Below, piece by piece: positions 3,546 through 13,361 of a DNA stretch of 24,644 nt. Position 1 is the first letter of the stretch. Each line of letters begins with the position of its first letter. Position numbers and translations under genes: made by a program. The notes below the pieces were generated by a model. It did not search any database, had not been told where the DNA came from, and was given only the letters and a program-made list of their open reading frames with translations. The stretch spans positions 1-24,644 of IMG/VR virus record IMGVR_UViG_3300004806_000093; one strand, 5' to 3'. Source of the stretch: a virus.

Positions 3546-5579
3546 TTAATATGTATTCCAGTTAGCTTTTCTAACCTTCATTCCAACAATAGCTATTTTT
3601 GATACGATTCCATATACGCCAAATCCAACATAACAAGCATTTGCTGGCATTGTTACAACTTGACGCAAATAAGACCAAGAAGTTGTAACACCTTGAGATT
3701 GATCAACAATATTAGTAAAGTCGCTTAACAATGTTCCTGTGTTGTCAAATATAGCGCAACCTAAAGAAGCTGTTGATCCAGATAAAATCTTTACCCAACC
3801 TTCAACCAAAAAACTATCATTTTGTTTGGTTCTAATGGCAGTTGATTTAACTGTTGACAAAGAAGTTCTATCAACAGTAAATACACCAGCTTTTCCTGTA
3901 GCATCTACATAAACTGAATTAGTATAATAATATCCAGAAGGAACGTCTGTTGATAATCCTATTGTTGTTCCAGCACCATATTCATTGTATAAATAATATC
4001 CATCAGTAGTAATTCCTTCTGTATCTACAGCAAGAATACTGTCATAAATACTTTGCTCAACAGTATCTAATTTGTAAGTAGCAAAATATGGATCGGCATA
4101 TCCATTTGGATACCAACGACAACCATTAAATTCAACACTTTGTGCATTTCCGCTTAACAATGGAACAAATTGAGCCCATTCTTGAATATCACAATTATTG
4201 AAGGTGATTTCAATATTTCTTGAAGAACCAGTATTGTTTACTAAAGATTTAGCACTAAAAGATCCTGTTCCAGGAGGTCTAAAAATCTGACAATCGCTAA
4301 CCTTGAGAACAGATGCAGCACTAGCACTTGAAGGAATATAAAATTGATTAGTTAACGACTGAGTATTTAAAATGCGACCACCAGTAATTTTTAACTCTCC
4401 GCTAATAGAAAATGGAACATCCACTTCTGTCATACATTGATTTAAAAATACATTACCGCCATTTACAATACTTCCATTAGTTGTTACATCGGCTACGCTA
4501 TTTTGAATTTCGCTATTGCTAATCACTAATTGACCAGCATCACAAGTAAATGCTCTATTGTCTTGATAGTTAAAATTACCTGGTGATCCAGTTGACCAGC
4601 CCTCATCTTGAACAGCTACCATGCTTCCAGTTAAAAATATAAATCCATTGCTATGATTTACATAAATAGACTTTTGCATACCTTTGGTCATGTAACCAAA
4701 AATACTATTTTCTGATTGAGCATAATTAGTGCTTGAATTGCCAGGCAAAGCACCAAAAACCAATCCAAGCAATCCATATTCAATTTGCAAACCAAAGAAA
4801 TTGTTATATTGTGAAGAAAGACTTGCGTTATACCACCATAAAGCACAAGTGTAATTTCTCTTAAAGTTCATATTGATCTTTAAGCCATAAATATTGGTGC
4901 TATATCCTTGAAATCTTAATAAACAATCTTGATTTGCCGTTGATCCAGCAACCAAATAAGCATTGTCGCAATACCAAGTTGTATAACAAGCACCAGTATC
5001 TAAAGTGGTTACTTTATAGTTTCCAGAAGGAAAATAAAGGCTACCACCAGCAGCAGTAGCGTTAATAGCAGCCTGAATGGATGCTGTATCGTCTGTTGTG
5101 CCATCGCCAACAGCACCAAAATCTTTAACTGAAACCCATTCTTGAAGCTTTGAAAATACTGTTCTTCCAACTGCTGCTGAGTAAAAACCGCTTGAATTAG
5201 CCTGTTTAAAGCCTACTAATGCGCTTCCTTTTGTAAGGCTAGAGGTATTAGCTAAATCTGCATAAACTTGAGCAATTTCTTGAGCAGTAGCTATTCCGCT
5301 TAAATTGTCATAAGAGCCAATTTGATTTGCTGAAGCATCTTGCAATATAAATTTATAAGATAAAGAAGTATCAAGCCAAACTTCACTAGGAGTTCTTCCT
5401 GTTGAAGTTAAAACAATAGGATTTGCATTTGCAACATTTCCTGCGCTAGTTGTATAAGTAGCAGCAAGAGTTGAAGTTCCAGCCTGATAAGTGTAAAGAA
5501 GGCCACCAGCCAAAGGAACGCCATCATTGCTAAAAAACTGCCATCCTGCGCCAGCTAAAGGGGAAAGGTTAACTGCCAT
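3546..5579 (-). CDS. Tailspike with right-handed beta-helix
   Basis: This 677-residue protein has three parts. Residues 1-110 form a virion-attachment domain (MAVNLSPLAGAGWQFF, GGLLYTYQAGTSTLAATYT), a form very common at the start of podovirus spikes. Residues 149-172 carry the classic entry to a pectate-lyase-like beta helix, VSVKDFGAVGDGTTDDTASI, and the following 300 residues are repetitive short strands fitting the helix rungs. The last part, from about residue 540, looks like a jelly-roll or carbohydrate-binding cap. Such spikes bind and often cleave surface polysaccharide of the host. Catalytic residues cannot be named from sequence alone. The gene sits between the fibres and gp4, where receptor-binding proteins are grouped. 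Confidence 0.85.
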   Translation of the reverse strand: MAVNLSPLAGAGWQFFSNDGVPLAGGLLYTYQAGTSTLAATYTTSAGNVANANPIVLTSTGRTPSEVWLDTSLSYKFILQDASANQIGSYDNLSGIATAQEIAQVYADLANTSSLTKGSALVGFKQANSSGFYSAAVGRTVFSKLQEWVSVKDFGAVGDGTTDDTASIQAAINATAAGGSLYFPSGNYKVTTLDTGACYTTWYCDNAYLVAGSTANQDCLLRFQGYSTNIYGLKINMNFKRNYTCALWWYNASLSSQYNNFFGLQIEYGLLGLVFGALPGNSSTNYAQSENSIFGYMTKGMQKSIYVNHSNGFIFLTGSMVAVQDEGWSTGSPGNFNYQDNRAFTCDAGQLVISNSEIQNSVADVTTNGSIVNGGNVFLNQCMTEVDVPFSISGELKITGGRILNTQSLTNQFYIPSSASAASVLKVSDCQIFRPPGTGSFSAKSLVNNTGSSRNIEITFNNCDIQEWAQFVPLLSGNAQSVEFNGCRWYPNGYADPYFATYKLDTVEQSIYDSILAVDTEGITTDGYYLYNEYGAGTTIGLSTDVPSGYYYTNSVYVDATGKAGVFTVDRTSLSTVKSTAIRTKQNDSFLVEGWVKILSGSTASLGCAIFDNTGTLLSDFTNIVDQSQGVTTSWSYLRQVVTMPANACYVGFGVYGIVSKIAIVGMKVRKANWNTY

Positions 5580-11799: not shown

Positions 11800-13337
11800 T
11801 TAAGCTGCAACTCGGCAAGCGAGTTCTGGATACAAAGGAGCCCAGCCGTACAGTACGTCAACACGAGTTGGAATAGAGTCATTGTTAATGGTGTATTGAC
11901 GAACTACACGCATTGACAGACCAATTTCCTTGTCGGAAGCACGACCAGCGAAATGAACACCTTCAGGCAACTCTAAGTCAGCCATAGCCATTGTGAACGC
12001 ATTGCGATGCATTACGATGTTTTGTGGAGAAACTACGCCATTACCGCTTGCATTGTATTGTGATGCAAAGAATGTCACAGCAGCAGTTGCTGATGGGCTA
12101 GGGATGCTTACGTTTTGGAACTGACCGCCAGAGATAACTGCTGGAGATACTGTTACTGAAACGCTTGAACCTGAAGCAACTGAAACAGCAGACTTAACTA
12201 CGAATGAACGCAATTTGTTTGTGCCGTAAGCTTGACGATTTTGTGGGTTAACTGCATACACACCAGCAATTTGGAATGTATCACCAGCGTTCAAGTTGAT
12301 TGTGCCTGTATTAGCAGCAGTCAAAGTGATTGTGGATTGTGAAGCCCAACCAGAAGTCAAGAAACCAGTAGCAGTAGTTGTAGCTACAGAAGCAGTTACT
12401 GTAGAGCTAGAAAAGTTACCAAAAGTCTGTGACACGATGTTTTGGTCAAGTTTCCAGTTCATACCGCCTGAATCACGACCCATCAAGCCTTTTTCGTATT
12501 GCATACCAATCTTGTCGTTAGGAACGAAAAGACCTTTTAAGCTGTCTACGATAGTTGCTGAAGTGAACGGCTCAACGATACATGATCTACGACCATCACG
12601 AGGAGCACCTTCGGAATCGAGGTAAGCCTGAGCTGACAAGTATGTATACAAGCCAGTTGGAGGAGTACCAGCAGTACCAACAATGTTAGCTGTGTTCAAA
12701 GCAGCAGTAGTTGTGCCATCAAAGTCAATTTTGTTGGCAATAGCAGCTACGGCTGGTTTCAGGATGCGATCCGAGAACATATCCAATGACAATGCCAAAT
12801 CCTGTGTTGTGAACTGAGTGTCCACGTGGAATTGGGTTGACAAAGTAACTGGAACGCTAGTTTCGTTCAAGTCTTCTACGTTCAGGGCTGGCCCTGTAGT
12901 TCCAATAAAGCGTCCAGGCCTCATTCTGTTACTTTCACCTTTCGGCTACTGACCATCTTTCAATGGCGGTTCGAGTTCTTCGACTCAAACTCAGCGACTT
13001 CTTTAGTTATATCGCTGTTCAGACTATCGCATCTCCTTTCGGAGGCTTCTCACTTAGTCGTTCAGGCTGCTTTCGCTTGCCCCCTGTCGCCCACCTCTGG
13101 GCTTCCAAGTCAATCAGAGAAACTTTTACGTCCGCACACCTGTTCTATTTACGGACGTTAACTGTAGCGCCAATCTTGGCTCCTCAATACTACAGTTAAA
13201 CTGAGGCAGGATTAATTTACCACAGCAAATTGGTCATCATAGTTGCGGTCAACTTCTGATGTAAATGTTAATTCGTTTTCTAAAACCATCAACGCTTCGT
13301 TGGTGATTTTAGAGATAGTTAATAGCGTATTTGCCAT
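11800..13337 (-). CDS. P22-like major coat protein, split gene (three exons)
   Basis: The coat protein forms the icosahedral shell around the scaffold and portal. The gene starts at the ATG at 13337 with a GGAG ribosome site. Exon 1 (13219-13337) gives MANTLLTISK to QFAV, the typical N-terminus of P22-like coat proteins. Exon 2 (13151-13184, 34 nt) gives GAKIGATVNVR, a conserved segment. Exon 3 (11800-12921) gives RPGRFIGTTG through the C-terminus (RVDVLYGWAPLYPELA). Joining these in frame gives 424 residues, close to the 430 of P22 gp5. Between exons 2 and 3 is a group I intron. Between exons 1 and 2 is an unexplained 34-nt insert with a stop. The homology and exon 2/3 junction are well supported; removal of the small insert is inferred. 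An annotation beginning at the ATG at 12924 would miss the N-terminal 51 residues. Confidence 0.85.
12922..13150 (-). ncRNA. Group I self-splicing intron in the coat gene
   Basis: A 229-nt intron without an ORF, read on the minus strand. P1 pairs the exon end ACGTCCGT (13158-13151) with GCGGACGT (13135-13128), giving a U.G at the 5' splice site. P3 is GTTTCTC (13123-13117) with GAGAAGC (13051-13045). P4 is CTTG with CAGG, joined by GAA and GA to P5 (GCCC/GGGC). P6 is GGGC/GCCT with a GCGAAAGC cap. P7, the guanosine site, is GACTA (13059-13055) with TAGTC (13026-13022). P8 is CTCC-GAAA-GGAG. Three P9-type hairpins and a GCC-GAAA-GGT hairpin follow, and the last base is G. The guide AGGTGT (13141-13136) can pair with exon AGGCCT as P10 with one mismatch. 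Removing it joins VNVR to RPGR in frame. The size is like the compact bacterial tRNA introns. Confidence 0.9.
13158..13199. repeat. 10-base perfect inverted repeat across insert and mini-exon
   Basis: TTAACTGTAG at 13158-13167 and CTACAGTTAA at 13190-13199 are exact inverted copies with a 22-base loop. One arm lies in the 34-nt insert, the other in the coding mini-exon right beside the P1 helix of the group I intron. In RNA this would form a stable hairpin that stacks next to P1. Confidence 0.85.
13185..13218 (-). other. 34-nt second intervening sequence in the coat gene
   Basis: On the minus strand the coat frame reads FAVV and then reaches TAA at 13212-13214. A second in-frame stop (TGA, 13184-13186) sits just before GGA GCC AAG, where the coat reading resumes in another frame as GAKIG. 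Deleting exactly 34 nt restores FAVVGAKIG, matching the spacing expected of this coat family. The insert starts T|AAAT and ends TG|AGG, the same edge bases as the group I intron. It has no room for a ribozyme core. It could be a relic, an unknown splicing unit, a bypassed segment or a sequence error. Confidence 0.6.
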
Positions 13338-13361
13338 TTTAATTCTCCAAAAAAATTAGGT

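Follow-up and report, generated by a model that had tools for sequence, protein, structure and literature searches.

How does a virus make its coat protein from a gene that is interrupted twice, and what could remove an interruption that is itself too short to hold a catalyst? These questions are raised by a 24,644-base virus record, the whole of which we refer to as the window, in which the terminase (Pfam Terminase_3), the P22-like portal and the coat gene all lie on the minus strand, as does an ORF in the scaffold position, between portal and coat gene. From its start at 13337 (minus strand), the coat gene runs into two intervening segments, a 34-nt insert and then, 34 nt on, a 229-nt intron (Table 1; below, the mini-intron and the main intron, separated by a mini-exon). 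A preliminary description, which missed the frame-breaking 34-nt insert at 13218-13185, had reported that removal of the 229-nt intron joins VNVR to RPGRF in the coat frame. The joint is as it said, but exon 1 still ends FAVVN-stop unless the 34-nt element is removed as well. Specifically, excision of the main intron alone gives MANTLLTISK...DQFAVVN-stop, with a TAA met at the insert, so that restoration of the frame also requires removal of the insert. With both segments removed, the product has 424 aa and matches Pfam P22_CoatProtein over residues 1-421 (E 8.4e-34). No second coat copy was found in the records searched, where the interrupted gene is the sole copy.

Table 1. Coordinates of the exons, intervening segments and pairing elements of the coat gene in the window (^ marks a junction here and in the text).
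Feature	Position	Strand	Basis
Coat exon 1 (MANTLLTISK...DQFAV + GT of next Val codon)	13219..13337	-	Alignment to uninterrupted homologue MW202520
Core-less mini-intron, 34 nt, AAATTAATCCTGCCTCAGTTTAACTGTAGTATTG, after U, ends G, frame-breaking	13185..13218	-	19 distinct alleles
P10-like CCU, complementary to mini-exon start AGG (13184-13182)	13208..13210	-	Invariant, 19/19 alleles
Mini-intron IGS GCCUCAG, partner exon 1 CUGUGGU (13225-13219)	13201..13207	-	Compensatory changes, pairs 2 and 6
Stem B 5' arm UUAACUGUAG, partner mini-exon CUACAGUUAA (13167-13158)	13190..13199	-	Covariation, pairs 3, 6, 9
Mini-exon, 34 nt, codes (A)GAKIGATVNVR	13151..13184	-	Allele differences synonymous or equal to protein variants of uninterrupted homologues
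Main group I intron, 229 nt, no ORF for homing endonuclease	12922..13150	-	Core covariation (68 relatives); empty site in homologues
Main intron IGS GCGGACGU, partner exon ACGUCCGU at 13158-13151	13128..13135	-	Sequence
P3 5' strand; 3' strand 13051-13045	13117..13123	-	Covariation
P7 5' strand GACUA; 3' strand UAGUC 13026-13022	13055..13059	-	Paired in 68/68 relatives, invariant
Coat exon 2 (RPGRF...CRVAA stop)	11800..12921	-	Pfam match of joined product

The longer segment is well supported, by sequence comparison, as a compact group I intron without a homing gene in a P22-like coat gene. The case for this assignment combines the covariation of its core, the site-matched P1 helices of its relatives at different sites, and homologues in which the site is empty. 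The preliminary description had placed such an intron at 12922-13150, and on the minus strand these limits, which enclose 229 nt, are exact. The homologue MW202520 has the empty site and reads TVNVRRPGRF where the exon joint here reads ...GTCCGT^AGGCCT... (VNVR^RPGRF). The 5' splice site lies directly after ACGTCCGT, which pairs with GCGGACGT (13135-13128). This 8-bp P1 (ACGUCCGU/GCGGACGU) carries the U-G at the 5' splice site that had been reported, and its pattern occurs once in the window and in none of 100 shuffles. The 3' end, ...AACAGAATG (also given as ...AACAGAAUG), has the final G that had been noted, and we likewise find no ORF for a homing endonuclease. That splicing could time or limit capsid production, as that description suggested, is a conjecture apart from these results. 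The P10 described earlier can be drawn, as GCCU with AGGU, but it is weak, with a 2-nt offset. The claim that all core helices can be drawn gains covariation behind it. Across 68 non-redundant introns of the family, 94.4% of the cells pair when P3, P4, P5, P6, P7, P8, P9, P9.1 and P9.2 are placed as drawn in the window, and these helices hold 628 two-sided changes against a shuffle mean of 185 (max 221), the shuffles pairing at 72%. Sliding one partner by 1-3 columns lowers core pairing to 37-49% in the same introns. P7 (GACUA/UAGUC) is invariant and hence adds no covariation signal.

The covariance search that the preliminary description proposed as a check, with Rfam RF00028, went the other way and gave no match to the main intron. 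Rfam had no match at the gathering score in the window and no RF00028 match at E<=10 for the intron stretch, and the loci of 20 relatives gave no RF00028 match, which indicates that RF00028 misses the whole family. The main intron shares with known group I introns the U-G in P1, covarying P3-P9, the invariant P7 and the terminal G, but the model does not detect it, and we take this to reflect what the model can recognize, not a biological feature that defines the group. Our verdict is that the main intron is of a known kind, group I, in a family that Rfam misses, and that the mini-intron, which has splice-site elements only and no core, is the more unusual of the two.

The family is large. A 17-base motif from the core is present in more than 120 viral stretches, often in two or three copies per contig. 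Family introns occupy many different sites in coat genes (contigs L001, L033, L084, L089, L091, L094, L125, L202, L243, L253 and L307), with up to three in one coat gene and a site-matched P1 for each where one can be drawn; the automated P1 finder is noisy, its shuffled control having stems of at least 6 bp in 35 of 68 cases, and is illustrative only. In MW202674, a homologous insert lies elsewhere in this gene (HVD^TQF), and a P1 matched to that site, AUGUGGAU/GUCCACAU, can be drawn for it. L033 and L137 have a full family intron at GCCGT^TGTTGG, just 3 nt from the mini-intron site; the L033 intron was considered as an occupant of that site and ruled out by the 3-nt offset, the true occupants being those of L307 and L309 (see below). 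Unrelated introns also invade this gene, as L175 shows: the group I-like intron at DDQ of its coat gene (minus strand, near 3896) has a different core. Outside coat genes, the annotation of Roseobacter phage CRP-118 splits the ribonucleotide reductase gene into two ORFs, and the roughly 400 nt that separate them (L231 1493-1892) match the intron core. This gap is probably an unannotated family intron, and since CRP-118 is a cultured phage it would be useful for experiments.

The mini-intron is bounded in the window by GTGGT^AAAT...ATTG^AGG. We recognize 19 distinct alleles, of 32, 33, 34, 40 or 41 nt, which cover every length class modulo 3, and removal at the same boundaries restores DQFAV(V/I)G(A/G)KIG(N/A)TVNVR in all of them. 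Each allele ends in G and has CCU followed by G(C/U)CUCNG, the latter forming a helix with the 7 nt that end exon 1. This helix, P1m, is short; in all 19 alleles it has the splice-site U-G, and position 4 is always a U-U mismatch. Its changes are always compensated, pair 2 being G-C or A-U and pair 6 being U-A, A-U or G-C. From P1m the mini-intron IGS runs into the CCU, which complements the 3 nt that open the next exon, an arrangement like that of the canonical P1/P10 guide of group I introns. This P10-like pairing never varies and thus gives no evidence from covariation. A second helix, stem B, joins the 3' half of the mini-intron to the mini-exon; its pair 3 is found as all four Watson-Crick types, and pairs 6 and 9 likewise covary across the 19 alleles, for which pairing was counted per allele as a MAFFT alignment of the 19 misplaces stem B in the short ones. 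In the first 12 alleles 99.2% of the cells pair, with a covariation score of 0.153 against 0.080 +/- 0.010 in shuffles. Four alleles folded singly give mini-intron hairpins with z of -2.9 to -3.9. There is no room in 32-41 nt for a P3-P9 core, and without a catalytic core (P3-P8) we do not class the element as an autonomous group I intron. The best reading of these features is that it acts like the splice sites of a group I intron minus the core.

The mini-intron and the main intron go together. Among 167 distinct coat 5' regions, 25 have both, 140 have neither and 2 have a full intron at the mini-intron site and no main intron, while either element alone was found in none; part of this set was fetched by mini-intron or main-intron patterns, and the coat-protein and core-motif searches, which were not, agree. 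When the main P1 was scanned for, every coat-site match came with the mini-intron, the remaining matches being unrelated palindromes (L253 was flagged only since its IGS is GTCTCAG). The anatomy of the mini-intron, its covariation, the restored frame and this obligate co-occurrence can all be read off the sequences themselves. Coat genes were also searched, with no site specified, for short insertions that break the frame; none was found away from the mini-intron site except one 11-nt case, GACGAT^CTATAAACCTG^CAGTTC, in two near-identical contigs (L125 5927-5945, plus strand; L254 564-582, minus strand). It lies 38 nt upstream of another coat-gene family intron, with a U before it, a G at its end and no clear IGS, and is possibly a second, still shorter core-less case.

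The two regions with a full intron and no main intron point to an origin. In L307 and L309 the exact mini-intron position is occupied by a full-length family intron whose ends match those of the mini-intron; this full-length intron starts AAAC..CCTGCC and finishes AAATTG^AGG. The mini-intron probably arose when a full-length intron, such as still occupies the site in L307 and L309, lost its interior. Comparison of the window at 12850-13340 with L009 and L010 shows about 480 nt that are identical, spanning exon 1, the mini-intron, the main intron and the start of exon 2, in phages that are otherwise about 85% identical, which argues that the two elements move together. This joint transfer is perhaps recent and by co-conversion as in homing, although neither element has a homing gene.

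What, then, removes the mini-intron? We consider it likely, from comparison of these genes, that both segments of the coat gene are removed at the RNA level and that the core-less one is excised by the neighbouring ribozyme. With slightly less assurance, we favor the fuller statement that a complete group I ribozyme excises the conserved, non-autonomous natural element of 32-41 nt adjacent to it, an element made of P1, P10 and terminal G signals and a helix shared with the mini-exon. The choice of catalyst follows from the coat gene being single and from exact-pattern scans, in which the core of the main intron is the only one found, both in the window and in near-complete relatives (35.7 and 36.4 kb; genomes possibly incomplete). 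We propose that the main ribozyme, 34 nt downstream, would dock P1m while stem B would present the 3' splice site of the mini-intron, which would then leave by the usual two group I steps. This could take place in cis before the main intron splices itself, or in trans after it.

Excision of the mini-intron as RNA is what we infer, and one contig fits it. The first 1,125 nt of L255 (IMGVR_UViG_3300012703_000219) equal those of the intron-bearing L157, minus exactly both segments, here a 40-nt mini-intron and the main intron. L255 would be a spliced mRNA if its sample is a metatranscriptome, and is otherwise an intronless allele; the 33000127xx samples may include Wisconsin lake metatranscriptomes. 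The reading of L255 as an intronless DNA allele, and hence as no evidence for splicing, is unlikely but deserves real weight. Downstream of position 1125, L255 differs from L157 by about 3%, and its downstream allele is in no other contig, a scan for an intron-bearing contig with that allele having found none. This reading has to contend with flanks that otherwise match L157 for the 1,125 nt and with the junction GTGGT^AGG (GTGGTAGG), which is in no other viral contig of the collection and is lacking at every other intron-free coat site that fits the main-junction pattern. It bears on the contig only.

Three other explanations concern the mini-intron itself. The one that survives best, though we hold it improbable, keeps excision and changes the catalyst, with the mini-intron removed by another enzyme (another phage group I intron or a host factor) and not by the adjacent intron. 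Several phages with the mini-intron do have a second family intron (G009, G011, G012 and G019), but the near-complete G008 and G010 show the adjacent core only, by exact pattern, and the mini-intron strictly co-occurs with the adjacent intron.

Less probable still is that the RNA keeps the short insert and the ribosome skips it. In gene 60 of phage T4 and in byp elements, a short non-coding gap with a stop codon and a hairpin lies inside a coding frame and is bypassed in translation, and the mini-intron is alike in being a gap with a stop and hairpins inside a frame; the in-frame stop comes right after the presumed take-off codon, and variation in gap length is tolerated. It is unlike them in having no matched landing codon, as in every allele TGA stands immediately ahead of the first mini-exon codon, and in that its IGS-like guide pairs with the flanking exons. 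Only GTA matches frequently, and landing there would lose 7 conserved residues; it is absent in the window (WIN), L241, L243, L251 and L253. Programmed bypassing was rejected on these landing codons, and it would also leave unexplained why P1/P10 complement both exons, why a full intron is found at this site in relatives and why the insert is obligately paired with a ribozyme.

That the insert is a dead remnant or an assembly artefact in broken coat genes, as its breaking of the frame and the resemblance of the first copy to an isolated scar might suggest, is scarcely credible given 19 alleles in many assemblies with compensatory changes, no second coat copy, and an identical tract of about 480 nt with both elements in phages about 85% identical elsewhere, and this reading was dropped since the insert is present in diverged phages.

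To our knowledge, removal of a core-less intron by a separately supplied group I core is established only for engineered ribozymes, and a search of the literature for a natural precedent of a core-less element excised by its neighbour found nothing usable. Group III introns of Euglena chloroplasts are short and degenerate, have lost their core and need one supplied elsewhere; the mini-intron resembles them in its shortness and lack of a core and, if our proposal holds, in dependence, the difference being that group III introns derive from group II introns. Trans excision-splicing ribozymes (Bell, Johnson and Testa 2002; cited in PMC4094466 and PMC6155759) are, as these citing papers describe them, group I ribozymes that excise a short internal segment through P1 and P10 recognition. 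Going by those descriptions, that system is engineered, acts in trans and carries the IGS on the ribozyme, whereas the arrangement proposed here is natural and cis-adjacent, with the IGS on the excised segment. The group I spliceozyme (Amini, Olson and Muller 2014, PMC4094466) was designed from the Tetrahymena ribozyme and works in trans on an intron of 100 nt; it is similar to the arrangement proposed here in that a group I core removes a core-less intron between two splice sites. A natural layout of two intervening sequences with a small exon between them is found in a gene of phage phiNIT1 (Bastillevirinae, PMC11878797), and the passage on it reports no core-less intron.

If our proposal is correct, a group I core carries out natural excision-splicing on a segment other than itself, and the coat genes of these phages would display a first step in the parting of splicing signals from a shared catalyst. 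The relatives show the full intron and its probable core-less derivative at one coat-gene site, and together they would form a compact, testable model for how introns grow dependent on a shared catalyst, a separation that has been suggested both for group III introns and for the spliceosome. The main intron is one of a large family of phage group I introns that Rfam misses. Short frame-breaking segments in phage genes, which are easily called pseudogenes or assembly errors, may likewise be spliced elements.
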